A DNA stretch of 64,000 nt from Microbispora hainanensis (lineage in GTDB: Bacteria; Actinomycetota; Actinomycetes; Streptosporangiales; Streptosporangiaceae): the NCBI RefSeq assembly GCF_036186745.1, contig NZ_CP108086.1, positions 2,418,001-2,482,000 of the forward strand, read 5' to 3'. The position numbers and the translations under genes are program-made. Under the pieces are notes generated by a model that had not been told where the DNA came from, searched no databases, and saw only the letters and a program-made list of their open reading frames with translations. Of this stretch, positions 15,874 to 61,375 are shown in pieces (within the stretch, counting starts at the first letter, position 1; every line of letters starts with the position of its first letter).

Positions 15874-15962
15874 GGAGAGCTCGCCTAGTGGACGATGGCG
15901 GCGGTCTTGAAAACCGCTAGGCCGGGTGACCGGTCTCGTGGGTTCGAATCCCACGCTCTCCG
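15874..15962 (+). tRNA. tRNA-Ser(TGA)
   Basis: An 89-nt tRNA with 7-bp acceptor stem GGAGAGC/GCTCTCC (15874-15880 with 15955-15961), discriminator G 15962, anticodon loop CTTGAAAA giving TGA (codon UCA), a long class II variable arm (TAGGCCGGGTGACCGGTCTC) and T-loop GGTTCGAATCC. CCA is not encoded. An IS256 element starts 18 bp downstream. Confidence 0.97.
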
Positions 15963-46926: not shown

Positions 46927-47349
46927 ATGCCTCACGGCCGACAGCTCGCCGACCGCGTGCTGGACGCGGTGAACGCGCATGACCTCGACCGGCTGGCGGC
47001 GTGCTACGACCGGCATGCCGTCCTGGTCACCCCTCTGAGCATGTGCGAGGGGCGCGATCGGATCATCGGCTACTGGAAGGACCTGTTCGGGGGCTTCGTC
47101 GACCTGGCCATGACGGTCTGGAACAGGGTGGAGTACACCGAGCCCGGCTTCAACGAGTGGATGATGACGGGCACGCACACCGGCACCATCGCGCTGCCGG
47201 ACGTCGTCGCGGACGCGAGCGGCCGGCGGATCACCCTGCGCGGCTGCGGGGTGTTCCACACGAAGAACGGCCTCGTGGCCACCCATCGGCACTATTTCGA
47301 CCTGCTGGAGCTGTACTGCCAGCTCGGATTCTCGCTCGACATCGACTAG
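46927..47349 (+). CDS. SnoaL-like (NTF2-fold) protein
   Basis: A 140-residue NTF2-superfamily protein: ADRVLDAVNAHDLDRLAACYDRHAVLVTP is the typical first helix-strand unit, and THTGTIALPDVVADASGRRI with GVFHTKNGLVATHRHYFDLL completes the cone. Members are isomerases, hydrolases or ligand binders; no specific role is visible. ATG 46927 has GGGGGAG upstream. The MBL gene follows after 72 nt. Confidence 0.87.
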   Translation: MPHGRQLADRVLDAVNAHDLDRLAACYDRHAVLVTPLSMCEGRDRIIGYWKDLFGGFVDLAMTVWNRVEYTEPGFNEWMMTGTHTGTIALPDVVADASGRRITLRGCGVFHTKNGLVATHRHYFDLLELYCQLGFSLDID

Positions 47350-47421
47350 CTAACCTCACCCCGCTTTCGGGTGATTTGTGGTGGTTTACGTAGCCTGGAA
47401 GCCTGGGAGAGGGGAGGCGTC

Positions 47422-48267
47422 ATGCCCGATCCAGCGGACGCGACCGTGTTCTTCGTGGGAAACGCCACCATGATCATCCGTTCTCACGGTTTCACCGTGC
47501 TGACGGATCCGAACTTCCTGCACCAGGGGCAGCGGGCCCATCTCGGCTGGGGGCTGAGCACCCGTCGCCGTACGGAGCCGGCGATGGAGATCACGGAGCT
47601 CCCGCCGCTGGACCTGGTCGTGCTGTCGCACATGCACGGCGACCACTGGGACAGGATCGCCAGGAAAGGCCTCGACAAGGACCTGCCGATCGTCACCACC
47701 CGACACGCGGCGGCCCGGCTGCGCCGCCAGGGTTTCGTCCGCGCCATCGGCCTGGAGCCGTGGGAGTATCACCACGAGCGCCACGGGGACGGCACGCTCA
47801 CCGTGACGGCCACGCCCGCCCGGCACGCGCCGGGCCCGGTGAACTCGATGATGCCGCCGGTGATGGGAAGTGTGCTCGACTTCGCGCACGCGGGCGAGGT
47901 CGATCTGCGCCTGCACATCAGCGGCGACACGATCATGGACGAGTGCCTGTCGGAGATCCCGCGCCGCTTCCCCGACATCGACGTCGGCATCCTGCACCTC
48001 GGCGGCACGCGGATCCTCGGCGTCACCGTGACCATGGACGGCGCCCAGGGGGTGGAGTGGCTCGGGCTGATGCAGCCGGAGTCGGCCCTGCCCGTCCACT
48101 ACGACGACTACGCGGCGTTCGCCTCCCCGCTCAAGGACTTCCAGCAGCACGTCCGGCGAGCGGGGCTGTCGCACATGGTCCACTACCTCATGCGCGGCGA
48201 GACCTACCGCCTGCCCGTACGGAAGGCCGGCGTACGCCCGCACCGCCCGGTCGTCGGGCCCGGCTGA
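47422..48267 (+). CDS. MBL-fold metallohydrolase (UlaG-like)
   Basis: A 281-residue metallo-beta-lactamase-fold protein of the UlaG/RomA type. FFVGNATMIIRSHGFTVLTDP is the first strand block, VVLSHMHGDHWD the H-x-H-x-D-H metal motif, and RLHISGDTIMD supplies the later Asp; ALPVHYDDYAAF holds the last His. The substrate is unknown; relatives cleave sugar lactones or phosphodiesters. ATG 47422 has GGGAGG upstream; the longer frame is not needed. A double hairpin lies after the stop. Confidence 0.9.
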   Translation: MPDPADATVFFVGNATMIIRSHGFTVLTDPNFLHQGQRAHLGWGLSTRRRTEPAMEITELPPLDLVVLSHMHGDHWDRIARKGLDKDLPIVTTRHAAARLRRQGFVRAIGLEPWEYHHERHGDGTLTVTATPARHAPGPVNSMMPPVMGSVLDFAHAGEVDLRLHISGDTIMDECLSEIPRRFPDIDVGILHLGGTRILGVTVTMDGAQGVEWLGLMQPESALPVHYDDYAAFASPLKDFQQHVRRAGLSHMVHYLMRGETYRLPVRKAGVRPHRPVVGPG

Positions 48268-48289
48268 CCGCACCGGGGACCTTCGAGGA

Positions 48290-48322
48290 CTCACCACGCG
48301 GTGAGAACGCCGCCGCGGCGTT
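48290..48322. terminator. Bidirectional double hairpin
   Basis: CTCACC-ACGC-GGTGAG (48290-48305) is followed directly by AACGCCGC-C-GCGGCGTT (48306-48322), both perfect, between the convergent MBL and rhodanese genes. Confidence 0.6.
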
Positions 48323-48351
48323 GTCCTGCCCCGGCCGTACGGACCTCGCGA

Positions 48352-49164
48352 TCAGGCGGAGTGGCTCTCCTTCGGAGTGGCGGGATCGGCGCTCCACTCC
48401 GACCACGAGCCGTCGTAGACGGTGAGCCGATCGAACCCGATCTCGCGGAGGGCCAGGAAGGCGGCGCTGGCGGAGACCCCGCCACCGCAGTAGAGGATCG
48501 TGGGCCGGTCCCGTACGATGCCGGCCCGCTCGGCGAGCTCCGCGATCTCGGACGGGGCGCGCAGGAGGCCGCCGTCGGCGAAGAGGGCCGGCGCCGGGAA
48601 CCTGACCGCGCCGGGGATGTGGGCGCCGGCCGCCCGGTAGGTCTCGTCCATCCGGCAGTCGGCGATCGTGACGTCCCCCGTGCCGAGGGCCGCGAGCACG
48701 TCGTGCTTGGTGACCCGCAGGTCCCGGGGTCCGGGCACGGGGTACGTACGAGGCTCGGGCGCGGGCACCTCGGCGGTGACCGGCCGGTCCTCGCGCAGCC
48801 ACGCGGGCAGCCCGCCGTCGAGGACGTGGGCGTCGGCGTGCCCGTACTGGCGAAGCGCCCACACCAGCCGTGCCGCCATGTAGATCGTGCCGTCGTCGTA
48901 GGCGACCACGGTCGTGTCCGGCCCGATGCCCGCGGCCCCGAGCACGCGGGCGAACGCCTCCGGCGTGGCGAGCTGGCCCTCGACCGGGTCGTCCTCGTCC
49001 GACAGGTCGCGCAGCCAGCTCAGGTAGACGGCGCCGGGGATGTGGCCGTCCGCGTAGGCGCGCGCGCCCGCCTCCGGGTCGTCGAGCCGCCACCGTACGT
49101 CGACGATCCGGACACCCGGGTCGGTCAGCCGGGCCGCGAGCTCGGCGGTGCCGATGAACGTCAT
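48352..49164 (-). CDS. Thiosulfate/3-mercaptopyruvate sulfurtransferase (tandem rhodanese)
   Basis: A 270-residue two-domain rhodanese. The catalytic cysteine is C226 in LYCGGGVSAS (C-terminal domain); the N-terminal domain has Asp at the equivalent place (VVAYDDGTIYMA) and is inactive, as usual. Last gene of the molybdenum hydroxylase-ABC run; its start overlaps the livF-like stop (ATGA), so it is co-translated. It could supply sulfur for the sulfido ligand of the hydroxylase cofactor or handle a sulfur product; both are inference. Confidence 0.92.
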   Translation of the reverse strand: MTFIGTAELAARLTDPGVRIVDVRWRLDDPEAGARAYADGHIPGAVYLSWLRDLSDEDDPVEGQLATPEAFARVLGAAGIGPDTTVVAYDDGTIYMAARLVWALRQYGHADAHVLDGGLPAWLREDRPVTAEVPAPEPRTYPVPGPRDLRVTKHDVLAALGTGDVTIADCRMDETYRAAGAHIPGAVRFPAPALFADGGLLRAPSEIAELAERAGIVRDRPTILYCGGGVSASAAFLALREIGFDRLTVYDGSWSEWSADPATPKESHSA

Positions 49165-49886
49165 GATCGCTCCTTTGTGCCGAGATAGATGTCGCGGACG
49201 CGAGTGGAGGAGGACAGGTCGGCGGCCGGGCCGGATTCGGCGATGCGGCCGGTCTCCAGCACGTAGGCGTGGTCGGCGAGGTCCAGCGCGAGCTTGGCGT
49301 TCTGCTCGACCAGCAGGATGGTGTGGCCCTCGTCGCGCAGCCGGGCCAGCGCCTGGTAGATCCGCGTGACGAGCTTGGGCGACAGGCCCATCGACGGCTC
49401 GTCGAGGATCAGCAGGGTCGGCCGGGCCATGAGCGCCCGGCCGATGGCGAGCATCTGCTGCTGGCCGCCGGACAGCAGCCCGGCCGGGGCGTCCAGCCGG
49501 TCGGCGAGCTCCGGGAAGGTGCCGAGCACCCGGTCCAGCTCGTCGTCGCTCCGCCAGCTCCGGGGGCGGGTCGCCGCTCCCATGCGCAGGTTGTCGCGGA
49601 CCGACAGCCGGGCGAAGACGCGCCGCCCCTCGGGCACGTACGCGATGCCGAACCCGGCCATCTTGTGCGCCTCGTGCCTGCTCACGTCGGTGTCGCCGAC
49701 CTTCACCACGCCGGAGCGGTCCGCCTGCAGCCCGAGCAGGCCCCGGATGGTGGTGGTCTTGCCCGCGCCGTTGGCTCCCAGCAGGCAGGTGACCCGGCCG
49801 GTGGCGGCCTCGAACGAGACGCCGTGGACCACCTCGATGCGGCCGTAGGCGACACGCAGGTCGCGGATGGTGAGCGCGGCCGTCAT
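49161..49886 (-). CDS. livF: Branched-chain-type ABC transporter ATPase LivF
   Basis: A 241-residue ATPase of the HAAT importer family. Walker A LLGANGAGKTTTI, signature LLSGGQQQMLAIGRALM, Walker B LLILDEPSMGL. AYVPEGRRVFARLSVRDNL is characteristic of LivF. It pairs with the LivG protein to power uptake through LivH/LivM. ATGA overlaps on both sides. The symbol follows family resemblance; the substrate need not be a branched-chain amino acid, given the operon content. Confidence 0.94.
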   Translation of the reverse strand: MTAALTIRDLRVAYGRIEVVHGVSFEAATGRVTCLLGANGAGKTTTIRGLLGLQADRSGVVKVGDTDVSRHEAHKMAGFGIAYVPEGRRVFARLSVRDNLRMGAATRPRSWRSDDELDRVLGTFPELADRLDAPAGLLSGGQQQMLAIGRALMARPTLLILDEPSMGLSPKLVTRIYQALARLRDEGHTILLVEQNAKLALDLADHAYVLETGRIAESGPAADLSSSTRVRDIYLGTKERS

Positions 49887-50650
49887 GGTGTCCCCTCTCC
49901 CAGGTACGCCTCGATGACGCGGGGATCGGCGCGTACCTCCGCCGGGTCGCCCACCGTCAGCAGCTCGCCGTGGTCGAGCACCGCGATGTGGTCGGAGACC
50001 TCCATGACGAGCTGCATGTTGTGCTCGATGAGCAGCACGGCCACGCCCGCCCGCGCCATGCTGGTCACCTGCTCGCCCACCATCCGCGCGCTGGTCGCGG
50101 GCAGCCCGGCGGCCGGCTCGTCGAGCACGACCACGTGGGGGTCGAGGGCGAGTACCCTGGCCAGCTCCAGGAGCTTGGCCTGGCCGAAGGGCAGGGACTC
50201 CACCGGCACGTCGGCCGAGTCGGCCAGGCCGAACCGCTCCAGCAGCTCGCGGGCGGCCGTGCGCAGCCGCCGTTCCTCCCGCCGCGCGCCCGGCGGCGCG
50301 AGCAGGGCGCCGACCAGCCCGCTGCCGCCCCGGCCGTACGCGCCCATCATGACGTTCTCCAGCACCGTGAGGCCCTTGAAGATCTCCAGGTTCTGGAAGG
50401 TGCGGGCCAGGCCCGCCGAGGCGCGCAGCTCCGGACGCTGTCCGGTGAGGTCGCGGCCGGCCACCTCGATCCTGCCCTGGTCGGGGCGTTCGAAGCCGGA
50501 GACGATGTTGGCCAGGGTGCTCTTGCCGGCTCCGTTGGGGCCGATCAACGCGGTCACCATGGCCGGCCGCACGGTCAGGCTGACGTCGTTCAGCACGCGG
50601 ACCCCGCCGAAGCTCTTGGAGACCCCCGTGATCACCAGTCCTTCGCTCAT
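49883..50650 (-). CDS. livG: Branched-chain-type ABC transporter ATPase LivG
   Basis: A 255-residue ATPase. Walker A LIGPNGAGKSTLANIVSG, signature-like ESLPFGQAKLLELARVL (SLPFGQ replaces LSGGQ, as in many LivG proteins), Walker B VVVLDEPAAGL; GLARTFQNLEIFKGLTVLENV is typical of LivG. Translationally coupled with the LivM gene upstream and LivF downstream by ATGA overlaps. Confidence 0.94.
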   Translation of the reverse strand: MSEGLVITGVSKSFGGVRVLNDVSLTVRPAMVTALIGPNGAGKSTLANIVSGFERPDQGRIEVAGRDLTGQRPELRASAGLARTFQNLEIFKGLTVLENVMMGAYGRGGSGLVGALLAPPGARREERRLRTAARELLERFGLADSADVPVESLPFGQAKLLELARVLALDPHVVVLDEPAAGLPATSARMVGEQVTSMARAGVAVLLIEHNMQLVMEVSDHIAVLDHGELLTVGDPAEVRADPRVIEAYLGEGTP

Positions 50651-51579
50651 CGGGCCCTCCTCGGCGCCAAGCGCGCGGTCAGGCCGCCGACGCCGTCGGG
50701 GAACGCCTGGACGGCCACCAGGAACACCACGCCCACGATCAGCGACTCAAACCCGGCGTACTCGGTGCCGAGCTGGGACAGGCCGGTCAGCAGCGCCGCG
50801 CCGATCAGCGGGCCGGTGGGACGGCCCGCGCCGCCGACGGTCAGGCCCACGACGAACAGCACCGCTGTGAAGAAGCCGAAGGACGAGGGGCTGACGAAGG
50901 TGTCGTGGAACGTCTGCAGGGCTCCGGCCACCCCCGCGTAGCAGCCGCTGAGGCCGAAGGCGAACAGCCTCAGCCGGTAGGCGGGCACCCCGCTCGCCAC
51001 GGCGGCGGGCTCGGAGGACCCGAGCGCCCGCAGCGCCCGGCCCGCCCGCGAGGACGCCACGTTGTGCGCCACGAGCACGCCGAGGAAGGCGAGCGCGGCG
51101 GCCAGGACGTACATCGCGGTGGTCCCGCTCACGGCCTCGCCGAGCGGCGGGATGCCGAGCAGGCCGTTGGGCCCGCCGGTCAGCCAGGTCAGCCGGCCGA
51201 ACAGCAGATAGAGCACGTAGCCCGCCGCGAGGGTGGCCATCGTGAAGTACGTGGCCCGCAGCCGCAGCGACGCCGACCCGATCAGCAGCGCGACCACGGT
51301 GACCAGCAGCGGCGCGCACACGAAGGCCAGGACCGGCGGCAGGATCGAGCGCGCGCTGAGGATGCCCGCCGTGTAGGCGCCGAGGCCGTAGAGGCCCGCC
51401 TGCGCCAGGGAGATCATCCGGGCGTGGCCGTTGATGAAGTCGAGCCCCGTGAGCAGGAGCAGCATGACGCAGAACTGCACCAGCACCGAGTGCGCGTAGT
51501 CGGAGACGAACACCAGAGGGAGGGCCACGAGCAGGACGCCGGTCGCCACCGGCGGCGACAGGACACGCGAGACGGCCAT
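50647..51579 (-). CDS. livM: Branched-chain-type ABC permease LivM
   Basis: A 310-residue permease with about nine or ten helices. LDFINGHARMISLAQAGLYGLGAYT and the loop ALRALGSSEPAAVASGVPAYRLRLFAF (coupling EAA-like region) identify LivM. The start ATG 51579 shares its A with the stop of livH (TGATG), so translation is coupled. Ends with an ATGA overlap to livG. Confidence 0.93.
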   Translation of the reverse strand: MAVSRVLSPPVATGVLLVALPLVFVSDYAHSVLVQFCVMLLLLTGLDFINGHARMISLAQAGLYGLGAYTAGILSARSILPPVLAFVCAPLLVTVVALLIGSASLRLRATYFTMATLAAGYVLYLLFGRLTWLTGGPNGLLGIPPLGEAVSGTTAMYVLAAALAFLGVLVAHNVASSRAGRALRALGSSEPAAVASGVPAYRLRLFAFGLSGCYAGVAGALQTFHDTFVSPSSFGFFTAVLFVVGLTVGGAGRPTGPLIGAALLTGLSQLGTEYAGFESLIVGVVFLVAVQAFPDGVGGLTARLAPRRAR

Positions 51580-52454
51580 CAGACGCGCACCGCCTTCCGC
51601 TGCGCGAACAGGCCGGTGGGCCGGGTGAACAGCACGATCAGCAGGACGACGAACGCGACCGCGTCGCTGTAGGTGGCCGAGCCGTACCCGGCGACCACGG
51701 CCTCGGTCAGCCCGAGCAGCAGCCCGCCGGCCAGGGCGCCGTAGAGGTTGCCCAGCCCGCCGAGCATCGCGGCGGCGAACCCCTTGAGCCCGAGCAGGGT
51801 CCCCGAGTCGTAGGACATCACCGACAGCGGTGCGAGGCCGACCCCGGCGAGCGCGCCCAGCACCCCGGCGAGCACGAACGCCCAGCGGGCGGTCGTACGG
51901 AACGGCACGCCAAGGGAGGCGACCATCTCGGGGTCGTCGGCGGCGGCCCGCAGGATCGTGCCCCGGCGGGTGCGCCGGAAGAACGCCGACAGCGCCGCGG
52001 CGACCACCACGACGACCGCGAGGTTCCACAGCGCCTGGGTGTCGACGACCGCTCCGGCGACGTGCAGCGGCGCCTCCCCGAGGAAGTGGGGAAGCTGGTA
52101 GGTGCGCGCGCCGGTGGCCAGCAGGACCACCGCCTTGATCACCAACGTCAGCCCGATCGTCGCGAGGGTGATCACGTCGGCGTTGTGGGAGCGGGAGAAA
52201 CGACCGGCCGCCAGCTCCGTCAGCAGGCCGGCCGCCACTCCGACGGCCAGGGCGGCGAGCAGGCTCACGACCAGCGGCGGTCGCAGCCACTCGTTGACGA
52301 TCCCGGCCATGACGCCGCCCAGCATGACGAACTCGCCCTGCACGAAGTTCACCGCGCCGGTGCCGTTGGCGACCACGCCGAAGCCCACGGCCACCAGCGC
52401 GTACACCGCGCCCACGCTGAGCCCGGCGAACAGGACCTGGAGCAGCAGGGTCAC
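51579..52454 (-). CDS. livH: Branched-chain-type ABC permease LivH
   Basis: A 291-residue permease of about eight helices. LLLQVLFAGLSVGAVYALVA, GAVNFVQGEFVMLGGVMAGI and the coupling loop GTILRAAADDPEMVASLGV are LivH hallmarks. GTG 52454 is chosen because GGGAGG lies 4 nt upstream and the helix begins at once; a 12-bp tandem repeat has duplicated this ribosome binding site, creating a second possible GTG at 52466. The binding-protein gene stops 101 nt upstream. Confidence 0.92.
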   Translation of the reverse strand: MTLLLQVLFAGLSVGAVYALVAVGFGVVANGTGAVNFVQGEFVMLGGVMAGIVNEWLRPPLVVSLLAALAVGVAAGLLTELAAGRFSRSHNADVITLATIGLTLVIKAVVLLATGARTYQLPHFLGEAPLHVAGAVVDTQALWNLAVVVVVAAALSAFFRRTRRGTILRAAADDPEMVASLGVPFRTTARWAFVLAGVLGALAGVGLAPLSVMSYDSGTLLGLKGFAAAMLGGLGNLYGALAGGLLLGLTEAVVAGYGSATYSDAVAFVVLLIVLFTRPTGLFAQRKAVRV

Positions 52455-52476
52455 CGGGCCTCCCACCGGGCCTCCC
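52453..52476 (-). repeat. Duplicated ribosome binding site of livH
   Basis: Two tandem 12-bp units (ACCGGGCCTCCC on the plus strand) at 52453-52464 and 52465-52476, each carrying GGGAGG in the minus-strand sense. Confidence 0.8.
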
Positions 52477-52555
52477 ACCCGGCGCGGGAGAGCGGGGGCC
52501 GGGTCGTCCGGCCCCCCGCCAGGTCTCCGCTCGGGCGAACCACGCCGGACACGAC

Positions 52556-53734
52556 CTAGCTCCCGGCGGGCACGAAGCGCGTGCCGTCCCACTTGATCAT
52601 CGTCACGCCGTCGGAGGCGAGGCCGCTGTGGTCCTGGGCGCTGTACCGGAACACGCCGGTGAGGCCGACGTACTCGCCCAGGTTCTCCAGCGCCTTGGCC
52701 AGCGCCGGGCCGTCGGTGGTGCCCGCCTTCTCGATGGCCTCGGCGGTGATCATCATGGCGTCGTACGCCTGGCCCGCGTAGACGTTGGGCTGCTCCTGGT
52801 ACTTCGCCTGGTAGGCCGTGACGAAGTCGCCGATCGTCTTCTTCTGCGGGTCGGAGTCGGGCAGCAGGTCGTAGACGGGGAGCTTGGGGGAGGCCAGCAC
52901 GGTGCCGACGCTCGCCTCCCCCGCCTGCCGCATGTACCTGTCGTCCACGAAGCCGTGGCCGTGCTGGATCAGCACCGAGTCGTCGCGCACCAGCGCCCGC
53001 GCGTTCTTGATGAAGGCGACGCCCGAGCTGTCGGTGGTCCAGGCGAGGTAGGCCTGGGGCTTGCCGGCCGCGAGCTTGCCGAGCGTGGGGGTGAAGTCGT
53101 TGGTGCCCGTGTCGAAGGACGCGACGTCCATCTTGATGCCGGCCGCGGGGACCTCCTGCTTGGCCACCTCCAGCGCCGACTGCCCGAAGCCCGTGGTGTC
53201 GGGCAGCATCGCGACCCGCGAGACGCCCTTGGCCCTCCAGAACTCGATGATCTTCTGGATGACGACGGTGTCGTTGAAGGTCGCCTTGAACGTCAGCGCG
53301 TGCGCGCTTTCCGGCTGCACGATGTTGCGGGCGCCCTCGGTGGCGACGAACAGCTTCTTCGCCGGTTCGGTGAGCTGCGCCATGGCCAGCGCGATGCCGC
53401 TGGCGCTGCCGCCGCCGACCACGACGTCGACCTTGTCACTGGTCAGCAGCTTGCGGGTCTGCGACACCGCCGTCGCCGTGTCGCCGGCCGGGTCGTAGAA
53501 CTTCCACTCGATCTTCTTGCCGTCGATGCCGCCCCGCTGGTTGATCTGGTCGATGGCGAGCTCGATGCCCTTGCGCATCTTGTCGCCGACGTTCGCCGCC
53601 GGGCCCGTCACCGAGAACAGCGTGCCGACCTTGATCGTCTTTGCTTCGCCGCCGCCGGAGTCCGCGCCGGCCGAGCAGCCGGCCACCAGGACCGCGGTGG
53701 AGAGTGCGGCGGCGAGCCCATGCCTTGTCTTCAT
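52556..53734 (-). CDS. ABC substrate-binding lipoprotein (LivJ-like)
   Basis: A 392-residue periplasmic-binding-protein type I (Peripla_BP_6). The lipobox LVAGC puts the lipidated Cys at residue 20. IKVGTLFSVTGPAANVGDKM and GIELAIDQINQRGGI are the N-terminal family pattern; RVAMLPDTTGFGQSALEVAK the hinge region. It captures the substrate outside the cell for the LivHMGF importer. AGGAGAAA precedes ATG 53734, 7 nt after the stop of the iron-sulfur subunit gene. Relatives in such operons bind aromatic or heterocyclic compounds as often as amino acids. Confidence 0.93.
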   Translation of the reverse strand: MKTRHGLAAALSTAVLVAGCSAGADSGGGEAKTIKVGTLFSVTGPAANVGDKMRKGIELAIDQINQRGGIDGKKIEWKFYDPAGDTATAVSQTRKLLTSDKVDVVVGGGSASGIALAMAQLTEPAKKLFVATEGARNIVQPESAHALTFKATFNDTVVIQKIIEFWRAKGVSRVAMLPDTTGFGQSALEVAKQEVPAAGIKMDVASFDTGTNDFTPTLGKLAAGKPQAYLAWTTDSSGVAFIKNARALVRDDSVLIQHGHGFVDDRYMRQAGEASVGTVLASPKLPVYDLLPDSDPQKKTIGDFVTAYQAKYQEQPNVYAGQAYDAMMITAEAIEKAGTTDGPALAKALENLGEYVGLTGVFRYSAQDHSGLASDGVTMIKWDGTRFVPAGS

Positions 53735-53741
53735 GTTTCTC

Positions 53742-54278
53742 CTAGTGCTGCCGATCGGTGTGCTGTTGATCGGGAACGTCGCGTTCCCACTGCTCGTCCG
53801 CCTGCCGTACGGCGGCGATGATGCCCTGGTAGCCGGTGCACCGGCAGAGGTTGCCGGACAGCGCGACGCGGATGTCGCGCTCGGACAGCCCCCGCCGGGT
53901 GCTGAGCAGCTCGTACGCCGTCATCAGCACCCCGGGGGTGCAGAACCCGCACTGCAGGGCGTGGTTGTCGGTGAAGGCGCGCCGCAGCGGATGGGAGGCC
54001 GAAGCGCCGGAGGCGAGGCCCTCCACGGTGGTGACCTCGTGCCCATCCGCCTGGACGGCCAGCAGCAGGCAGGACCGCACCGACGCGCCGTCGAGCAGGA
54101 CCGTGCACGCGCCGCACACCCCCTGCTCGCATCCGACATGCGTGCCGGTGAGCCGCAGCTTCTCGCGCAGCAGCTCGGCGAGGCTCTCGCGCGGCTCGGC
54201 CCGTACGGCGTGCTCCACGCCGTTGACGCGCAGCCGGACGAGAATCCGCTCGTCACGCTCCCCGGGACCGGTGGTCAC
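53742..54278 (-). CDS. Molybdenum hydroxylase small subunit, two [2Fe-2S] clusters
   Basis: A 178-residue CoxS/XdhA-type subunit. The plant-ferredoxin cluster uses C50, C55, C58 and C70 (HVGCEQGVCGACTVLLDG), the second cluster C110, C113, C145 and C147 (QCGFCTPGVLM, NLCRCTGYQGI). All eight are present. It carries electrons from the Mo site to FAD. The GTG start overlaps the stop of the FAD subunit gene by 4 nt (GTGA). Confidence 0.95.
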   Translation of the reverse strand: MTTGPGERDERILVRLRVNGVEHAVRAEPRESLAELLREKLRLTGTHVGCEQGVCGACTVLLDGASVRSCLLLAVQADGHEVTTVEGLASGASASHPLRRAFTDNHALQCGFCTPGVLMTAYELLSTRRGLSERDIRVALSGNLCRCTGYQGIIAAVRQADEQWERDVPDQQHTDRQH

Positions 54279-55171
54279 CGCTGCTCACCCGCCCGGGACC
54301 AGGCCGTCTCCAGGCTCCGCAGCGTCAGCGCGTACACCAGCCGCCGCCGGTGCGCGGCGTCGGTGCGGGCGTCGCCGTACGGCTCGCACTGGACCGCGGC
54401 GGCCCTCGCCACCGCCCGGAACGCCTCGGGAGACGCCGCGGACGCCTCCGCAGACGCCTCCGGAGCGGCGCCGATCAGCGAGGCCGCCGCGGGCACGCGC
54501 CACGGACGCGGCCCGACCCCGGCGCAGACGAGGGCGGCGTCCGCGATCACGCCGCCGGCGGTCAGCGTCAGCTCGCAGGCGACACCCACCAGCGGCAGGT
54601 CCGCGTGCCTGCGGCTGTACTCCACCCACGCCTGGCCGGTGCGCGGTGGCGGGAGCGGGAACCGCACGCCGATCGCCATCTCGCCCAGGGCCAGCGACGT
54701 GTGGTTCGCCCCGAGGAAGAACTCGCCGGCGGGACACGTCCTGAGCCCGGCCGCGGACGCGATGCTCACCTCGGCCCGGCAGGCCACGGCCACCGCGGGC
54801 AGCTCCGCGGACGGGTCGGCGTGCGTCAGGCTGCCGACGATCGTGCCCCGGTTGCGGATGGCGATCCTGCCGATCAACGCCGTCGCCTCGGAGAGGATCG
54901 GAATCCGGGCGCGCACGTCCGCGTCCAGCTCCACGCGGCGCTGCCGTACGGTGGCGCCGATGTGGAGCGCGTCGTCGTCCCACCGCAGGACGTCCAGGCC
55001 GGCGACGGCGTTGATGTCGACCAGCGTCCCGGGGCGCGCCGCCCGCCGGTTGAGCAGCGGCACGAGGCTCTGCCCGCCGGCGAGCACCCGGGCGTGCCGA
55101 TTCCCGGCGAGGTGGGCGAGCGTCTCCTCCAGCGAACGCGGGCGCACGTAGTCGAAGGCGGCGGGTCTCAT
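54275..55171 (-). CDS. Molybdenum hydroxylase FAD-binding subunit
   Basis: A 298-residue CoxM-type flavoprotein. FDYVRPRSLEETLAHLA, VLAGGQSLVPLLNRR (FAD pyrophosphate loop) and IRNRGTIVGSLTHADPSAELP (second FAD loop) are all conserved; the C-terminal CO_deh_flav_C domain follows. An alanine-rich insertion (residues about 230-250) encoded by GACGCCTCCG-like repeats is unusual. It passes electrons from the iron-sulfur subunit to the final acceptor. Six nucleotides separate it from the metallohydrolase gene. Confidence 0.94.
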   Translation of the reverse strand: MRPAAFDYVRPRSLEETLAHLAGNRHARVLAGGQSLVPLLNRRAARPGTLVDINAVAGLDVLRWDDDALHIGATVRQRRVELDADVRARIPILSEATALIGRIAIRNRGTIVGSLTHADPSAELPAVAVACRAEVSIASAAGLRTCPAGEFFLGANHTSLALGEMAIGVRFPLPPPRTGQAWVEYSRRHADLPLVGVACELTLTAGGVIADAALVCAGVGPRPWRVPAAASLIGAAPEASAEASAASPEAFRAVARAAAVQCEPYGDARTDAAHRRRLVYALTLRSLETAWSRAGEQR

Positions 55172-55177
55172 CGGGGG

Positions 55178-55972
55178 TCAGGCTCCGATCGGGGACCCGA
55201 TGCGGGTGATGTCCCAGGCCTCGGACATGTGCAGCGGCAGCACGTTGTCGCCGCCGATCTCCTTGAGCTTGAGCATCGTCTCGTACGACTCGAACAGGTC
55301 GGTGTGGCCGCCCGGCGGGATGACCTTGAAGTGCTCCTGCTGCTCTTCGGTGGGGTAGAAGTTCTCCTTCAGCACGCACATGCCGGCGATGACGAAGGTG
55401 CCCTCGCTCGTCTTGACGATCGCGGACTGGCCGCCGAAGGTGTGCCCGGGGGACAGGATGAGCTCGAGCCCTTCGGCGATCTTGTGCGTGCCGTCGAGGA
55501 GCTCCAGGTTCCCCTCGGCGATCTTGTCGTAGTGCTCCTTGGGGGCGAACGAGGTGGCGAACATCTCGTGCGACGGGGTGGTCTCCCACTCCCTGCGCTG
55601 CACGTAGACGGTGCTCTCCGTGAACGGGTCCATCGTCATGCAGTGGTCCCAGTCCAGATGGGACAGGACGACGAAGTCGATGTCGCGCGGGGCCAGGCCG
55701 CGGTCGCGCAGGTGCTCGGTGATCGGCTTGACGTCGACCACGTCGGCGAAGACCTGGCCGACGTGCACGAGCTGGCGGTCCTTGGGCCGGATGTGCTCGG
55801 CGTAGTCCCGGGCGCTGCAGCCCACGTCGATCAGCACGTTGAGGTCCTTGCCGCGCACCAGCCAGGACACGTACGGGATGTCGATGGCCACGCCCGCGTT
55901 GTGCATGTAGGTGAAGCGGCTCTTCTCCCTGTGCGGTCCGTACGCGACGACCATGGGCTCGATCGTGAACAA
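55178..55972 (-). CDS. N-acyl-homoserine-lactonase-like MBL metallohydrolase
   Basis: A 264-residue AHL-lactonase-type enzyme: VVLSHLDWDHCMTM is the H-x-D-H motif (His-Leu-Asp-Trp-Asp-His), GHTFGGQSAIV supplies the next His, and LPLHMSEAWD the last. I place the start at TTG 55972: AAGGAG lies 6 nt upstream, and the first ATG (55954) has no ribosome binding site. It sits between the Mo and FAD subunit genes of the hydroxylase, so it probably hydrolyses a lactone, lactam or other ring product of the hydroxylation rather than a quorum signal (inference). Confidence 0.88.
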   Translation of the reverse strand: MFTIEPMVVAYGPHREKSRFTYMHNAGVAIDIPYVSWLVRGKDLNVLIDVGCSARDYAEHIRPKDRQLVHVGQVFADVVDVKPITEHLRDRGLAPRDIDFVVLSHLDWDHCMTMDPFTESTVYVQRREWETTPSHEMFATSFAPKEHYDKIAEGNLELLDGTHKIAEGLELILSPGHTFGGQSAIVKTSEGTFVIAGMCVLKENFYPTEEQQEHFKVIPPGGHTDLFESYETMLKLKEIGGDNVLPLHMSEAWDITRIGSPIGA

Positions 55973-55992
55973 CGTTGTCTCCTTGTCGGGGA

Positions 55993-58350
55993 TCAGAAGG
56001 GGCCGGGCAGCAGACCGGACACGTAGGCGGGCGTCAGCGGGGTGCGGTCCACCTCGACGCCGAAGGGGGCGAGCGCGTCGGCGACGGCGCAGGCCACGGC
56101 GGCCGGCGTCGCGATCACTCCGGATTCGCCCATTCCCTTGCTGCCGTTGACGGTGAGCGGAGACGGCGAGCAACAGTGCCCGAGCCGTACGTGGGGGATC
56201 TCGGCGGCGGTCGGCAGCAGGTAGTCGGAGAACGAGGTGGCCAGCGGCACGCCGTCGGCGGTGTAGGGGACGTGCTCGTACAGCGCGCCGCCGACGCCCT
56301 GGACGAACGCGCCGAGGACCTGGCCCTCGACCATGAGGGGGTTGAGCATCGTGCCGCAGTCCTCCACGGCCGCGGCGTCCACCACCGCCACGTCGCCGGT
56401 CAGCGGATCGACCTCGACGACCACGGCCACGCAGCCGTTGGAGTAGGTGGCCGGGGGGTCGTAGAAGCGGTTGGCGACCAGGTCGGGCTCGGGGAGGTGC
56501 TCGCGCACGGCGGGATCGAAGTGCGCCCGGCCGGCCAGCTCGGCCAGCGGCACGCTCCGTGCCGGCACGCCGCGGACCCGGACGTGCCCCTGGTCGAACT
56601 CCAGGTCGCGGGGGTCGCACTCGAGCAGGCCGGCGGCGAGGCGGGCGAGCTTGTCCCGCAGGTCGCGGGCGGCCAGGGTGAGCGCCCCGCCGATGACCGT
56701 GGCGGTCCGGCTGGCCCTCGTGCCCGCCGTGCTGATCGGGACGGCGGCGGTGTCGTCGGCCAGCACGGTCACCGTCGCCGGGTCGACGCCCAGCACGTCG
56801 GCCACCACCTGGGCCAGAACCGTGGCGTGCCCCTGCCCCTGGGACGGCGTGCCGACCGCCACGGTCACCTCGCCGGACGGCTCCATGGTGACCCGCACGT
56901 GGTCGTGCGAGGCGAAGGACCACGACGACTGCAGCGCCCCTGCGGTGCCCCAGCCGCTGGGCTCGACGTACGGGCTGACGCCGACGCCCAGGTAGCGGCC
57001 GCGCTCGCGGGCGGCCGCGCGGCGCTCCTCCAGGCCGGTGTAGCCGATCAGGCCGGCCGCCTTGTCGAGGGACTCGACGTAGCTCCCGCTGTCGTAGTCC
57101 ATCCCGGTGGCCGAGGTGTAGGGGAACTCCCGGACGAGGTTCTGCCTGCGCAGGTCGAGCGGGTCGCGGCCGAGCAGCCGGGCGGCCCGGTCGATCAGGA
57201 CCTCCCGCGCGGAGTGGCTCGCCGTCCAGCCGACCCCCCGATACGGGGAGATCGGGGACTTGTTGGTCAGCACCGCGGTGACTTCCCAGGCCACGTTGCG
57301 GATCCGGTACGGCCCGGGCAGCAGCCCGGCCGACAGGTAGCACTCGATGAGCGCGCTCGCGCTGTTGAAGGAGTAGGCCCCGCAGTCGCCGACGATCCGT
57401 GCGCGGACCGCCTCGAACGCGCCGTCCGCCGACAGCGCCAGCTCCATGTCGACGATCTGGTCCTTGGCGTGCGGGGCGGCGGTGATGTTCTCCTGCCGGT
57501 CCTCCACCCACCGCACCGGAAGGCCGGTGGCCCGCGCGGCCAGCGCGACGGCGATCTCCTCGGGGGCCGCCGGGATCTTCTGGCCGAAGCCGCCGCCGAC
57601 GTCGGGGACGAGCACCCTGATCCGGCCCTCGCCCATCTCCAGGCAGTGCGCCAGCTTCCGCCGCAGCAGGTGGGGCGACTGGGTGGAGCAGTGCACGGTC
57701 AGCCGGTCGCCGGCCGCGTCGTAGTCCGCCAGGCAGCCGCGGGTCTCCATCGGCGCGGCGATGAAGCGGCCGGTGGTGAACCGCCCGGTGACGACGTGTG
57801 CGGCGGACGCGAAGGCGTCGTCCACGTTCCCGTACGTCCGGCTGCCCGCGTAGATCACGTTGCCGGGAATGTCCTCGAAGAGCGGCTCGGCCCGGCCGTG
57901 CTGTCCGGCGAGCGGGTCGGTGGCGGCCGGCAGCGGCGCGTAGCCGACCCGGATCAGCTCCGCCGCGTCCTCGGCCACCGCCCTGCTGCCGGCGAGCACG
58001 ATCGCCACCGGCTCTCCCACGTAGCGCACCCGGTCGGAGGCGAGGGCCGGTTGCGGGGTCTTCACCAGCCCGGGTACGGCGACGGAGTCGACCAGCGGCC
58101 GGTGTGGAAGCTCGGCCGCGGTGAGCACCGCGTGCACCCCGGGCAGCGACCGGGCCGCGCTGGTGTCGATGGAGACGATCCTCGCGTGCGCGTGGGGCGA
58201 GCGGAGGAAGTGCGCGTGCGTCATCCCCGGCACGGTGACGTCGGCGAGGAACCTCCCCGCGCCGGCGAGGAGCCGTGCGTCCTCCAGCCGCGTCAGGCGT
58301 GCGCCCAGTGCCCGCTCGCTGGGGCCGGAACCGGTGAGCCGCTCGCTCAT
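55993..58350 (-). CDS. Molybdenum hydroxylase large subunit (form II CoxL/XDH type)
   Basis: A 785-residue molybdopterin-cytosine-dinucleotide subunit. VGGGFGQK (residues 251-258) contacts the cofactor and E742 in KGMGESG is the catalytic Glu. The active-site loop reads PYRGVGW (369-375); form I CO dehydrogenase has AYRCSFR there, with the Cu-binding Cys, so this is not a CO dehydrogenase. It should hydroxylate a carbon next to nitrogen in a heterocycle or an aldehyde. First gene of the ten-gene run, divergent from a TetR regulator. Confidence 0.95.
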   Translation of the reverse strand: MSERLTGSGPSERALGARLTRLEDARLLAGAGRFLADVTVPGMTHAHFLRSPHAHARIVSIDTSAARSLPGVHAVLTAAELPHRPLVDSVAVPGLVKTPQPALASDRVRYVGEPVAIVLAGSRAVAEDAAELIRVGYAPLPAATDPLAGQHGRAEPLFEDIPGNVIYAGSRTYGNVDDAFASAAHVVTGRFTTGRFIAAPMETRGCLADYDAAGDRLTVHCSTQSPHLLRRKLAHCLEMGEGRIRVLVPDVGGGFGQKIPAAPEEIAVALAARATGLPVRWVEDRQENITAAPHAKDQIVDMELALSADGAFEAVRARIVGDCGAYSFNSASALIECYLSAGLLPGPYRIRNVAWEVTAVLTNKSPISPYRGVGWTASHSAREVLIDRAARLLGRDPLDLRRQNLVREFPYTSATGMDYDSGSYVESLDKAAGLIGYTGLEERRAAARERGRYLGVGVSPYVEPSGWGTAGALQSSWSFASHDHVRVTMEPSGEVTVAVGTPSQGQGHATVLAQVVADVLGVDPATVTVLADDTAAVPISTAGTRASRTATVIGGALTLAARDLRDKLARLAAGLLECDPRDLEFDQGHVRVRGVPARSVPLAELAGRAHFDPAVREHLPEPDLVANRFYDPPATYSNGCVAVVVEVDPLTGDVAVVDAAAVEDCGTMLNPLMVEGQVLGAFVQGVGGALYEHVPYTADGVPLATSFSDYLLPTAAEIPHVRLGHCCSPSPLTVNGSKGMGESGVIATPAAVACAVADALAPFGVEVDRTPLTPAYVSGLLPGPF

Positions 58351-58366
58351 GTCCCCTTCCGAGGAT

Positions 58367-58386
58367 CTAACAGTTCGGTCTGATAG
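58367..58386. promoter_or_regulatory. Candidate TetR operator O1 over the operon promoter
   Basis: CTAACAG-TTCGGT-CTGATAG, 7-bp arms with one mismatch, 17 bp upstream of the large-subunit gene; the minus-strand TGTTAG of the left arm could be its -10 box. Confidence 0.45.
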
Positions 58387-58477
58387 TTGTAGTCACGCCT
58401 GCCGGCCATGCTCGTTAGGTCGTGATCATCTGGGTTGATCAGTGATTTTGACCGGAGCGAGTCCGGCAGCGGAGTCC

Positions 58478-58501
58478 GTTCCTGTTTGCTCGAACAGGAA
58501 C
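58478..58501. promoter_or_regulatory. Candidate TetR operator O2
   Basis: GTTCCTGTT-TGCTCG-AACAGGAAC, a perfect inverted repeat with 9-bp arms in the middle of the divergent spacer, 92 bp before the TetR start. Confidence 0.65.
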
Positions 58502-58592
58502 AGCATACATAGCCTACCGGCTGTGTCGGAAATTCTGCACGTTAGGGTGATCGAGGCCGCGCACCCCCGTCCGCTGTGAAAGGAGAGCCCGG

Positions 58593-59273
58593 GTGACCGT
58601 CAAGAATCGCGATGGGTCGGCCGTGGACGGCAAGGTGCGGCGTCGTGATCCCGACCGGTCCCGGCAGGCGATCCTGGACGCGGCCGAGCAGGTCTTCGCC
58701 AGGGAGGGCTACGACGGGGCGAGCATGGCCGCGATCGGCAAGGCGGCCGGGGTCTCGGGCACGCTGCCCGGCTACTTCTTCGGCGACAAGGCGACCCTGT
58801 ACGCGGCGGTCATCGACCGGCTGTTCGAGGAGCGCAACCGCGCGCTGGAGGAGCTGGGCAGGGCGGCGACGGCCGTGCTGAAGGAGGAGGACGGGCTCCG
58901 CCGCGGGCTGGAGGTGCTGGTCGGCGGTTATCTGCGGTTCCTGCTCGCGCGCCCCACGTTCGTGCAGCTGATGGCGCGCGACGCCCTCGAGATGACCCGC
59001 AGCGGCCGGGCGACCGAGCCGCGCCATTCGGCCGCCTACGAAAGCAGCGTGCGCGGGTTCCTCGCGGCGCTGTCGCCGCCGCCCGGTCCGGGAGTCGAGC
59101 CCGACCAGTTGCTGATCAGCATCGTGGCGCTGTGCTTCTTCCCTCTCGAGCACGACGCGACCATGCTCGCCGGCATGGGGTACCGCGCGTGGACCCCCGC
59201 CTTCGTGGGCAAACGCACCGAGCACGTGGTGGACATCCTGCTCCGGGTGCTGACCACCACGCCCGTACGGTAG
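58593..59273 (+). CDS. TetR-family regulator of the Mo-hydroxylase operon
   Basis: A 226-residue TetR protein. HTH: AILDAAEQVFAREGYDGASM, IGKAAGVSGTLPGYFFGDKA (about residues 26-68). The C-terminal domain (LFEERNRALEELG, LVGGYLRFLLARPTFVQLMA) is of the TetR_C-type ligand-binding class. GTG 58593 has AAAGGAGAG upstream. It faces the operon across 242 bp with two inverted repeats and most likely represses it until a pathway compound binds. Confidence 0.9.
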   Translation: MTVKNRDGSAVDGKVRRRDPDRSRQAILDAAEQVFAREGYDGASMAAIGKAAGVSGTLPGYFFGDKATLYAAVIDRLFEERNRALEELGRAATAVLKEEDGLRRGLEVLVGGYLRFLLARPTFVQLMARDALEMTRSGRATEPRHSAAYESSVRGFLAALSPPPGPGVEPDQLLISIVALCFFPLEHDATMLAGMGYRAWTPAFVGKRTEHVVDILLRVLTTTPVR

Positions 59274-59315: not shown

Positions 59316-59360
59316 CGGGCTCACGGGCGTACGGGCTCACGGGCGTACGGGCTCACGGGC
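59316..59360. repeat. 16-bp tandem repeat spanning the ChaA stop codon
   Basis: CGGGCTCACGGGCGTA at 59316-59331 and 59332-59347, then a partial third copy at 59348-59360; the minus-strand stop codon of the antiporter gene (59353-59355) lies in the third copy. Confidence 0.9.
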
Positions 59361-60453
59361 TCGCCGCGAGGAGCAGGAAGGCGGCGCACAGCGTGAGGTG
59401 CACGCACGCCTGCAGCAGGTGGGCCCGGCCGGGCATCACGGTCAGCGTCGCCACGACGACGGTGATGCCGAGCAGCACGATGTGCGTCGGGCCGAGCCCG
59501 AGCAGCAGCGGGCCCTTCATCCACAACGACGCGACGGCGATCGTCGGAATGGTGAGCCCGATGCTGGCCATGGCCGAGCCGAAGGCGAGGTTCATACTGA
59601 CCTGCACCCGGGCCCGCCGGGCCGCGCGCACGGCCGCGAGGGTCTCCGGCAGCAGCACCAGCAGCGCGATCACGACGCCCACGGCCGACTGCGGGAGGCC
59701 CGCCGCGCTCACGGCCGTCTCGATCGCGGGAGACTCGACCTTCGCCAGGCCGACCACGGCGACCAGCGCGCTCAGCAGCAGCGCCAGACTGGCCACGGTG
59801 GCCCGCGTGCTCGGCGGGCTGGCGTGTTCGGCGGCATCTCCGCCATCCTCGTCCGTCTCCACGGGCAGGAAGTAGTCGCGGTGCCGCACGGTCTGGGTGA
59901 GCACGAACAGGCCGTACAGCGCGATCGAGGCGAGCGCCGCGAACGCGAGCTGGGCCGGGGCGAAGGCGGGGCCGGGGCTGCTCGTGGTGAACGTCGGCAG
60001 GACGAGGCTCAACGTGGACAGGGTGGCGACGGTGGCCAGCGCGGCTCCCGTCCCCTCCGCGTTGAACACCGCCACCCGCCGCCGCAGGGCCGCGACCAGC
60101 AGCGACAGGCCGACGATCCCGTTACAGGTGAGCATCACGGCGGCGAAGACGGTGTCGCGGGCGAGCGACGACGCGGCCGGGCCCCCGGACGCGGTGAGGC
60201 TGATGATCAGGGCCACCTCGATCACGGTGACCGCCACGGCGAGCACGAGCGACCCGAACGGCTCGCCCACCCGATGGGCGATGACCTCGGCGTGGTGCAC
60301 GGCCGCGAGCACGGAGACCGCGAGGAACAGCGCCGCGATCACCACGACGACGAGAGGAATGGTCCGTCCCCACGCCAGCGCGAGCACTGCCACGGCGAGG
60401 ATCGGGACGGTCACGGTCCAGGTGGCGGCCAGTCGGCGGAAGAGCAGGATCAC
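59353..60453 (-). CDS. chaA: Calcium/proton antiporter (ChaA, CaCA family)
   Basis: A 366-residue protein with eleven helices of the ChaA type. EVIAHRVGEPFGSLVLAVAV with VIEVALI is the first alpha repeat, and VIALLVLLPETLAAVRAA with NLAFGSAMASIGLTIPTI the second, each with the acidic ion-binding residue. It exports Ca2+ (or Na+/K+) in exchange for protons. GTG 60453 is preferred to TTG 60471 because AGGA lies 8 nt upstream. The stop lies in a 16-bp tandem repeat. Confidence 0.9.
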   Translation of the reverse strand: MILLFRRLAATWTVTVPILAVAVLALAWGRTIPLVVVVIAALFLAVSVLAAVHHAEVIAHRVGEPFGSLVLAVAVTVIEVALIISLTASGGPAASSLARDTVFAAVMLTCNGIVGLSLLVAALRRRVAVFNAEGTGAALATVATLSTLSLVLPTFTTSSPGPAFAPAQLAFAALASIALYGLFVLTQTVRHRDYFLPVETDEDGGDAAEHASPPSTRATVASLALLLSALVAVVGLAKVESPAIETAVSAAGLPQSAVGVVIALLVLLPETLAAVRAARRARVQVSMNLAFGSAMASIGLTIPTIAVASLWMKGPLLLGLGPTHIVLLGITVVVATLTVMPGRAHLLQACVHLTLCAAFLLLAASP

Positions 60454-60499
60454 ATGCTTTATCCTGCCCAAATGGGACGAATGGTATAAAAGTCTCAGC

Positions 60500-61375
60500 T
60501 CAGAGCTGCTTGAGCAGCCAGCGGGGACCGGCGACCACGGCGCCGAGGGCCGTCACCCGCTCGCGCAGCCCGCGGTCGGCGGTGACGACGAGCGTGGTCT
60601 CCCAGGGCCGCATGTCGCGCACCGCCTCCACGATCGCGTCGTCCCCACTGCCTCCCGCCGCCACGACCGTCAGGTCCCCGGTCACCGGCCCGGAGTCGGC
60701 GGCACCGGTCGCCGCCCCTTCGAGCACCGCGACCATGCGCGGGAACCACCGGGTCAGGGCCGGCACGCCTTCGGGCATCTCGCCGATGCCCTGTTCGCAG
60801 AGCGGGACCAGCTCGTTGAGCAGGCGGTTCGCGGCGCCCGCCCGGTCCTTCCACCAGCCGTGCTCGGCCCGCGCGCCGATGATGTTGGCCATGTCGAGCA
60901 CGACGACCACCGGGCTCAGCGCGGGCCTGATCCTCGGCCACGACTCGGCGAAGCCGGGGTGCAGCTCCCTCGCCGGGACCTCGTCGGCCGCCACCCAGCG
61001 CATGTCCGCGCTCTCGCCGTTGGCGGGCGAGGCGTCGAGCAGCCCTTCGGCCTCCGCGATCACCGTCTGGAACGACCAGCCGCCGTGGTCGTCGACGTAG
61101 AGCCCGCGCACCCGGACGAGCTCGGAGTCGAGCGCCGCCTCCTCGCGGGCCTCTCGCAGCGCGCCGGCGATGGCGTCCTCGTGGCTGTCACGCGCGCCGC
61201 CCGGCAGGCCCCACGTCCCGCCGTGATGGCTCCACCAGGAACGCTTCTGCATCAGCACGTACGGCATGCCGTCGAGCGTGTGGTGCACGGTGAGCAGGCC
61301 GGCGGCGCCGTACAGCCCCCAGTGCTGGTGTCCCAGTGAGCACAGGGCCCAGCCGTCGCCGTCCTTCGCCGTCAT
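60500..61375 (-). CDS. NUDIX hydrolase fused to a NYN/PIN-like domain
   Basis: A 291-residue two-domain protein. The N-terminal NUDIX domain has the box GGARDSHEDAIAGALREARE with EE following (residues 59-81) and an unusual start LCSLGHQHWGLYGAAG. From about residue 155, VVVVLDMANIIGARAEHGWW and DDAIVEAVRDM, LVVTADRGLRERVTALG match the NYN/PIN RNase fold with conserved Asp residues. Nucleotide hydrolase and RNase modules in one chain suggest RNA or nucleotide quality control. ATG 61375. Not co-transcribed with obvious partners. Confidence 0.87.
   Translation of the reverse strand: MTAKDGDGWALCSLGHQHWGLYGAAGLLTVHHTLDGMPYVLMQKRSWWSHHGGTWGLPGGARDSHEDAIAGALREAREEAALDSELVRVRGLYVDDHGGWSFQTVIAEAEGLLDASPANGESADMRWVAADEVPARELHPGFAESWPRIRPALSPVVVVLDMANIIGARAEHGWWKDRAGAANRLLNELVPLCEQGIGEMPEGVPALTRWFPRMVAVLEGAATGAADSGPVTGDLTVVAAGGSGDDAIVEAVRDMRPWETTLVVTADRGLRERVTALGAVVAGPRWLLKQL

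Follow-up and report, generated by a model that had tools for sequence, protein, structure and literature searches.

What does an operon do that joins a molybdenum (Mo) hydroxylase, a metallo-beta-lactamase-fold (MBL) hydrolase, a Liv-type importer and a rhodanese? The question is raised by a stretch of 64,000 nucleotides from Microbispora hainanensis (contig NZ_CP108086.1, hereafter the window), in which ten minus-strand genes run from 58350 down to 48352 (window coordinates, as throughout) in the order Mo large subunit, MBL, FAD subunit, [2Fe-2S] subunit (FeS), LivJ, LivH, LivM, LivG, LivF and rhodanese. With moderate confidence we propose that this is a TetR-controlled operon for thiazole catabolism and that its substrate is most likely the thiazole half of thiamine, that is 4-methyl-5-(2-hydroxyethyl)thiazole (HET) or its acid.

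A Pfam profile search gave at least one family above cut-off for each of the ten genes. Coordinates, strand and families all agree with a first-pass annotation of this DNA made from the letters alone, as does the position of the MBL gene between its Mo and FAD neighbours. The junctions had been called near-contiguous, which holds for seven of nine with a gap or overlap of at most 7 nt: gaps of 6 nt (MBL-FAD) and 7 nt (FeS-LivJ) and overlaps of 4 nt (FAD/FeS), 1 nt (LivH/LivM) and 4 nt each at LivM/LivG, LivG/LivF and LivF/rhodanese. The Mo-MBL (20 nt) and LivJ-LivH (101 nt) junctions are looser. The best start of the MBL gene is a TTG at 55972, preceded by AAGGAG. The earlier span covered the ten genes but omitted a divergent TetR-family gene and an operator-like site in front of the Mo gene, both of which belong to the same system.

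The cluster is a rare accessory one. Of 297 genomes of the family, three gave the MBL protein at E <= 1e-40: the window genome, Microtetraspora glauca and Nonomuraea harbinensis (the latter two likewise Streptosporangiaceae); the 14 further genomes listed for the genus did not. At E <= 1e-35 it was found in a single genome, the window's own, of a phylum sample of 396. Scanning one genome per species (84,980 species) yielded 27 MBL loci, 14 of them at 49–87% identity (L009–L022) and 13 distant archaeal ones at 29–41%. The archaeal loci (L023–L035) were found via the conserved stretches FTYMHNA and HLDWDHC, and one of them (L032) shows two rhodanese matches within 4 kb.

The first-pass annotation had made its grouping depend on the gene order recurring elsewhere, and it does recur. 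In M. glauca (L009, genome G692) all ten genes and the TetR gene are collinear with the window, and most of the block is found in Nonomuraea and Nocardioides: N. harbinensis (L011), Nocardioides carbamazepini (L012), N. soli (L013) and Nocardioides sp. LHD-245 (L015) carry, in this order, TetR, MBL-LivJHMGF-rhodanese and FAD-FeS-Mo; in N. caldifontis (L010) the block reads MBL-rhodanese-FAD-FeS-Mo and the Liv genes are missing from it. A 4-kb contig (L014) holds TetR, MBL and the start of a rhodanese gene. Mo, MBL and rhodanese are adjacent in a Thermoleophilia metagenome-assembled genome (MAG; L022, G698), and a contig of an Eremiobacterota MAG (L016, G701) reads Mo-FAD-FeS-MBL before it ends. 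Since the order is collinear in M. glauca and the block recurs in Nonomuraea and Nocardioides, the grouping is more than chance. Core genes in these loci were counted by tblastn; the GC-frame gene caller missed or mis-framed some genes (e.g. Liv in L009 and L011, RidA and CoxG in L013). A TetR homologue (46–75%) is present in all seven loci whose MBL protein is at least 72% identical.

A 23-base motif was learned from the TetR intergenic regions of L010–L013 and L015. Its best position in the whole window scores 15.0 (next 8.1) and is the site that lies 15 nt upstream of the Mo start codon; in M. glauca it is found in the TetR intergenic region with a score of 12.0 (next separate site 7.0). 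In 266,824 bases of control DNA no match reached 15 and a single one reached 12 or more; it scores 14.3 and lies in another part of the M. glauca genome. Upon shuffling, the window intergenic region reached 15 in 0 of 2000 cases and that of M. glauca reached 12 in 4 of 2000. The best match in L022 (14.7) is far from the MBL gene. These scores point to an operator-like site shared by the window, M. glauca and the Nocardioides/Nonomuraea loci. Separate from this site, the TetR-Mo intergenic region of the window contains a near-perfect inverted repeat (58478–58501), which the repeat finder reported for the window only; the M. glauca motif site resembles it by eye. A sigma-70 promoter scan of 47200–58700 found none, with 0.3 expected.

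Which reactions could the enzymes of the operon catalyze? The domains of the large, FAD and FeS subunits are all above cut-off and the active-site loop of the large subunit reads SPYRGVGW, so the earlier assignment to the form II Mo hydroxylases holds. Among solved relatives the large subunit is closest to quinoline 2-oxidoreductase (1t3q), which fits hydroxylation beside a ring nitrogen. Aerobic CO dehydrogenase, a form I enzyme, was rejected on the basis of the loop, which is not AYRCSFR (the form I motif as given in the first-pass annotation), and of a score of 576 bits against an equivalog cut-off of 950. The importer gene set is complete for the Liv/HAAT type, with a binding protein, two permeases and two ATPases in one operon. 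Import of branched-chain amino acids or urea was discarded, as none of the five Liv proteins reached an equivalog cut-off among the matches listed.

The MBL protein carries the metal motif HLDWDH in 15 of 15 aligned sequences. Gly197 stands at the position of an Asp of AiiA, which we take to be the metal-bridging residue, and Cys199, His223 and Asp225 are invariant. An AlphaFold2 model computed from the 15-sequence alignment (predicted local distance difference test score 77.7) has as its nearest folds in a Foldseek search the acyl-homoserine lactone (AHL) lactonases and 4-pyridoxolactonase (E 3e-15, TM-score 0.66–0.72 in the first ten). The enzyme had been called AHL-lactonase-like, of which the fold alone stands: an AiiA-type AHL lactonase with a role in quorum quenching was rejected because the protein has HLDWDH instead of HxHxDH, Gly instead of the bridging Asp and 75.4 bits against an equivalog cut-off of 375; no equivalog cut-off was reached. 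The His-to-Asp change recurs in another MBL-fold protein of the same genome (L055 2818–3633, near 6.158 Mb), which carries HLDVDH, and is therefore not unique. In all eight sequences the rhodanese shows the loop CGGG(V/I)SA, a catalytic Cys loop like that of mercaptopyruvate sulfurtransferase (MST). It scores 134.9 bits with the MST equivalog (cut-off 250) and lacks the SseA insert that precedes the second GHIPGA motif. As this insert presumably holds the substrate-binding Arg, the substrate may not be mercaptopyruvate.

Sulfur genes in the relatives bear on the fate of the substrate. N. caldifontis encodes an MBL-rhodanese fusion directly behind the Mo gene, followed by a TauE-family gene; the nearest solved structure of the fusion is 3tp9, and BpPRF and the persulfide dioxygenase ETHE1 also match. 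The fusion is directly downstream of the Mo gene in four genomes (N. caldifontis, N. soli, LHD-245 and N. carbamazepini), and in Nonomuraea it starts at base 158 of one contig while the Mo match ends 190 bases before the end of another. Five Nocardioides/Nonomuraea clusters have a complete Mo part, and in each a TauE homologue comes next after the fusion; in four of them the rhodanese gene is separated from the FAD gene by RidA- and CoxG-type genes, the fifth having been mis-called by the gene caller. Since the persulfide-dioxygenase-rhodanese fusion and TauE occur in five out of five, the substrate's own sulfur is probably released. In the window genome the fusion has a single homologue (61%), which is located at 6.17 Mb and not accompanied by a second cluster; the best one in M. 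glauca (41%) is on another contig.

The import, hydroxylation and hydrolysis of a sulfur-free N-heterocycle or lactone, with the rhodanese only supplying sulfur, e.g. for the Mo cofactor, would agree with a Mo subunit nearest to quinoline 2-oxidoreductase and with an MBL fold nearest to AHL lactonases, and enzymes of the Mo hydroxylase class can indeed need cofactor sulfuration. We nevertheless consider it highly improbable, as sulfur supply explains neither the fusion nor TauE, the MBL metal site departs from that of AiiA, and TenA co-localizes with the cluster in relatives.

Thiaminases split vitamin B1. Thirteen genomes (the window genome and 12 relatives) were searched for TenA (PF03070), and nine have it near the MBL gene. 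In six of these nine all copies are clustered with it (N. caldifontis, G693, and G699, 4/4 each; G695, G696, G697 and G698, 3/3 each) and in three a part of them (G700, 2/3; G702, 3/4; G703, 2/4); split Pfam matches of one TenA gene, which concerned four genes, were counted once. As a control, the other Mo large subunits that these genomes encode were compared: 2 of 93 have a TenA within 45 kb, both on MBL-cluster contigs (93 of 108 rows, leaving out three G701 Mo large subunits and 12 cluster-linked ones). In N. caldifontis the order is substrate-binding protein, ATPase (an ATPase-like match), TenA, permease, MBL, rhodanese. The binding protein is ThiY-like and matches six solved sequences (a FAMP-binding protein, two THI5, two THI13 and one without a specific name), and the TenA aligns with the B. 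subtilis type, including a Cys and a Glu that we take to be catalytic. A Mo subunit of the window type is found on the MBL contig in the TenA-bearing genomes G698, G699, G700 and G702. Four of the MAGs (G699, G700, G702 and G703, with loci L017, L018, L020 and L021) are 2.6–4.1 Mb in size with 9–19 Mo-hydroxylase large subunits each (E <= 1e-60) and, from their bin names only, are perhaps sponge-associated.

Also near TenA are two amidohydrolases, B12-binding and methylmalonyl-CoA-mutase-like proteins, a CoA transferase, an M20 peptidase-like protein and an aldehyde dehydrogenase. Genes for the M20 peptidase-like, B12-binding, methylmalonyl-CoA-mutase-like and CoA-transferase III proteins form a conserved block (L089 5969–10386, L051 4402–8774, L022 4385–7586), possibly for degradation of the pyrimidine. 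Searched in 12 genomes (L016, G701, left out), the first amidohydrolase is present in nine and the second in eight; at 1e-60 neither was found in the window genome, M. glauca or N. harbinensis. Aminohydrolases of N-heterocycles are the nearest match for a homologue of the second, which stays below their cut-offs. These three Streptosporangiaceae lack the presumed pyrimidine block and keep Mo, MBL, rhodanese and importer, and we therefore assign the latter genes to the thiazole half. The Mo hydroxylase and the MBL enzyme could instead act on the pyrimidine half of thiamine, leaving only rhodanese and dioxygenase for the thiazole: N-heterocycles are commonly degraded with the help of Mo hydroxylases and ring-opening hydrolases, and in L017–L021 the MBL gene adjoins an amidohydrolase, without a rhodanese. 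This division of labour seems quite improbable to us, given that Mo, MBL and rhodanese stay together in the genomes without the two amidohydrolases and are neighbours in L022.

The substrate in Streptosporangiaceae might also be a sulfur heterocycle other than thiamine, another thiazole or a compound of the thiophene type, with the module recruited for thiamine by other bacteria. An example is thiophene-2-carboxylate, which Mo hydroxylation would turn into a thiolactone, open to ring cleavage by an MBL enzyme; first favoured from the sulfur genes, this compound was demoted when TenA and the ThiY-like protein were found. Consistent with such a substrate, no TenA is near the operon in the three Streptosporangiaceae, and an AMP-forming ligase, as a CoA-thioester route would need, adjoins TetR in L010, L011 and L012. 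Yet the window operon is without a CoA ligase, its LivJ and MBL proteins are 56–59% and 72–76% identical to their counterparts in the TenA-bearing Nocardioides and in Nonomuraea, and the operator-like site is common to them, which makes this alternative unlikely.

What is observed is a conserved set of genes, an operator-like site that several loci share, and genes for sulfur and thiamine handling beside the relatives' clusters. From these we infer a route to thiazole breakdown, whose reactions are chemistry read off protein families; the ring position and the use of one substrate by the window organism and its TenA-bearing relatives are likewise inferred. LivJHMGF would import the thiazole. 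The Mo hydroxylase would hydroxylate C2, beside the ring nitrogen as in quinoline 2-oxidoreductase, to give a thiazol-2-one, a cyclic thiocarbamate. The MBL hydrolase may then open this ring, and loss of CO2 would leave an enamine-thiol that yields an alpha-mercaptoketone and ammonia; a RidA-type protein may help here in the Nocardioides/Nonomuraea clusters. The MST-like rhodanese would draw the sulfur from the mercaptoketone onto its cysteine as a persulfide, so that a plain ketone remains, and this step would be the reason for an MST-type rhodanese in the operon. In the Nocardioides/Nonomuraea clusters the fusion would oxidize the persulfide sulfur to sulfite, which TauE may export.

The interpretation given by the first-pass annotation is thus partly supported. 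Import, Mo hydroxylation and hydrolytic ring opening remain the best scheme for a set that is conserved, with the rhodanese as sulfur acceptor and without the AHL-lactonase function. For growth tests it had suggested purines, nicotinate, pyridones, quinolines and lactams, each of which now seems less likely than the sulfur heterocycle that the relatives indicate, thiamine's thiazole being the best candidate.

Several observations weigh against thiamine thiazole as the substrate. TenA is not near the MBL gene in the window genome (0/2, nearest 71 kb), in M. glauca (0/5) or in the fragmented assembly of N. harbinensis (0/2), and G701 is without any TenA. No dioxygenase or TauE gene stands beside the window operon, and none was found in the M. 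glauca cluster. An Rfam search of seven cluster loci gave no match at all, hence no thiamine pyrophosphate riboswitch. Homologues of the window's rhodanese, FAD and FeS genes were not found in L017, L018, L020, L021 and L093, nor those of FAD and FeS in L022 and L092. The Mo subunits are of two types, mutually 32–35% identical: the window type (56–78%) is on the MBL contig in G692, G698, G699, G700, G702 and L016 and on another contig in G703, and the second type occurs in Nonomuraea and Nocardioides, with 4-hydroxybenzoyl-CoA reductase as nearest solved relative. Part of one study also places TenA often in salvage, not catabolism (PMC10881298).

More broadly, and here we see an even balance of chances, Actinobacteria and some Thermoleophilia and Acidimicrobiia-type MAGs may possess a modular, complete destruction of vitamin B1, in which TenA splits the vitamin, amidohydrolases and B12-mutase-linked genes act on the pyrimidine, and Mo, MBL (with its altered metal site) and rhodanese open the thiazole and take out its sulfur; the window operon would be a free-standing thiazole module. 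The origin of HET is called an unclear pathway in a portion of PMC10881298, and in a portion of PMC4475313 HET is regarded either as the probable end of the route or as a compound that ThiM phosphorylates. Older physiological work concerns soil bacteria that degrade thiamine. No thiazole-ring catabolic genes were found in the open-licence literature by title or start of abstract among the matches listed, which is weak as an absence. If true, our proposal would provide a new enzymatic opening of the thiazole ring with candidate genes for it, and the thiazole vitamer HET would have a biological sink. Microbial communities could then be surveyed for vitamin B1 loss by means of a genetic marker, and there would be candidate enzymes for drugs and pesticides that contain a thiazole.

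The features of the operon system are listed in Table 1. Past the rhodanese end, plus-strand genes encode a SnoaL-like protein (46927–47349) and an MBL-superfamily protein (Lactamase_B_2, 47371–48267); tblastn at 1e-8 matched neither of them in the loci of the relatives. Beyond TetR lie minus-strand genes of the sodium/calcium-exchanger family (59353–60471) and for a NUDIX protein (60500–61375). The single Rfam match in the whole window is a tRNA gene (15874–15962, plus strand).

Table 1. Genes and putative operator of the operon system, in window coordinates
Feature	Position	Strand	Basis
TetR-family regulator, divergent	58593..59273	+	PF00440 above cut-off; outside the first-pass span
Operator-like site, 15 nt upstream of Mo start codon	58366..58388	-	learned 23-base motif, score 15.0
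Mo hydroxylase large subunit, form II	55993..58350	-	PF01315, PF02738, PF20256; best solved relative 1t3q, 615 bits
MBL-fold hydrolase (proposed thiazolone, i.e. cyclic thiocarbamate, hydrolase)	55178..55972	-	PF00753
Mo hydroxylase FAD subunit	54275..55171	-	PF00941, PF03450
Mo hydroxylase [2Fe-2S] subunit	53742..54278	-	PF01799, PF00111
LivJ-type substrate-binding protein	52556..53734	-	PF13458; no equivalog cut-off reached
LivH-type permease	51579..52454	-	PF02653
LivM-type permease	50647..51579	-	PF02653; ATG start at 51579
LivG-type ATPase	49883..50650	-	PF00005, PF12399
LivF-type ATPase	49161..49886	-	PF00005
Two-domain MST-like rhodanese, loop CGGGVSA	48352..49164	-	PF00581 in two stretches; nearest solved 1urh (E. 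coli-type MST)

How does the operon compare with known systems? Quinoline 2-oxidoreductase (Qor, 1t3q) is likewise a three-subunit enzyme and resembles the window protein in its loop (YRGVGF against YRGVGW) and in the conserved KGMGE segment; in the window a different substrate is proposed and an MBL gene is inserted between the Mo and FAD genes. AiiA-type AHL lactonases have the same MBL fold, with HxHxDH where the window protein has HLDWDH. 4-Pyridoxolactonase of vitamin B6 catabolism, of the same fold, is likewise a ring opener in the breakdown of a vitamin. Two rhodanese domains and the MST-like loop are found in 3-mercaptopyruvate sulfurtransferase (SseA) as well as in the window rhodanese. 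Degradation of furoate and thiophene carboxylate proceeds via Mo hydroxylation beside the ring heteroatom and subsequent lactone or thiolactone opening, but it runs on CoA thioesters, for which the window operon has no ligase. Thiaminase II/TenA with a ThiY-type importer has a described role in pyrimidine salvage, whereas in nine relatives TenA is located near the MBL gene, beside genes for ring destruction, and is not part of the window operon.

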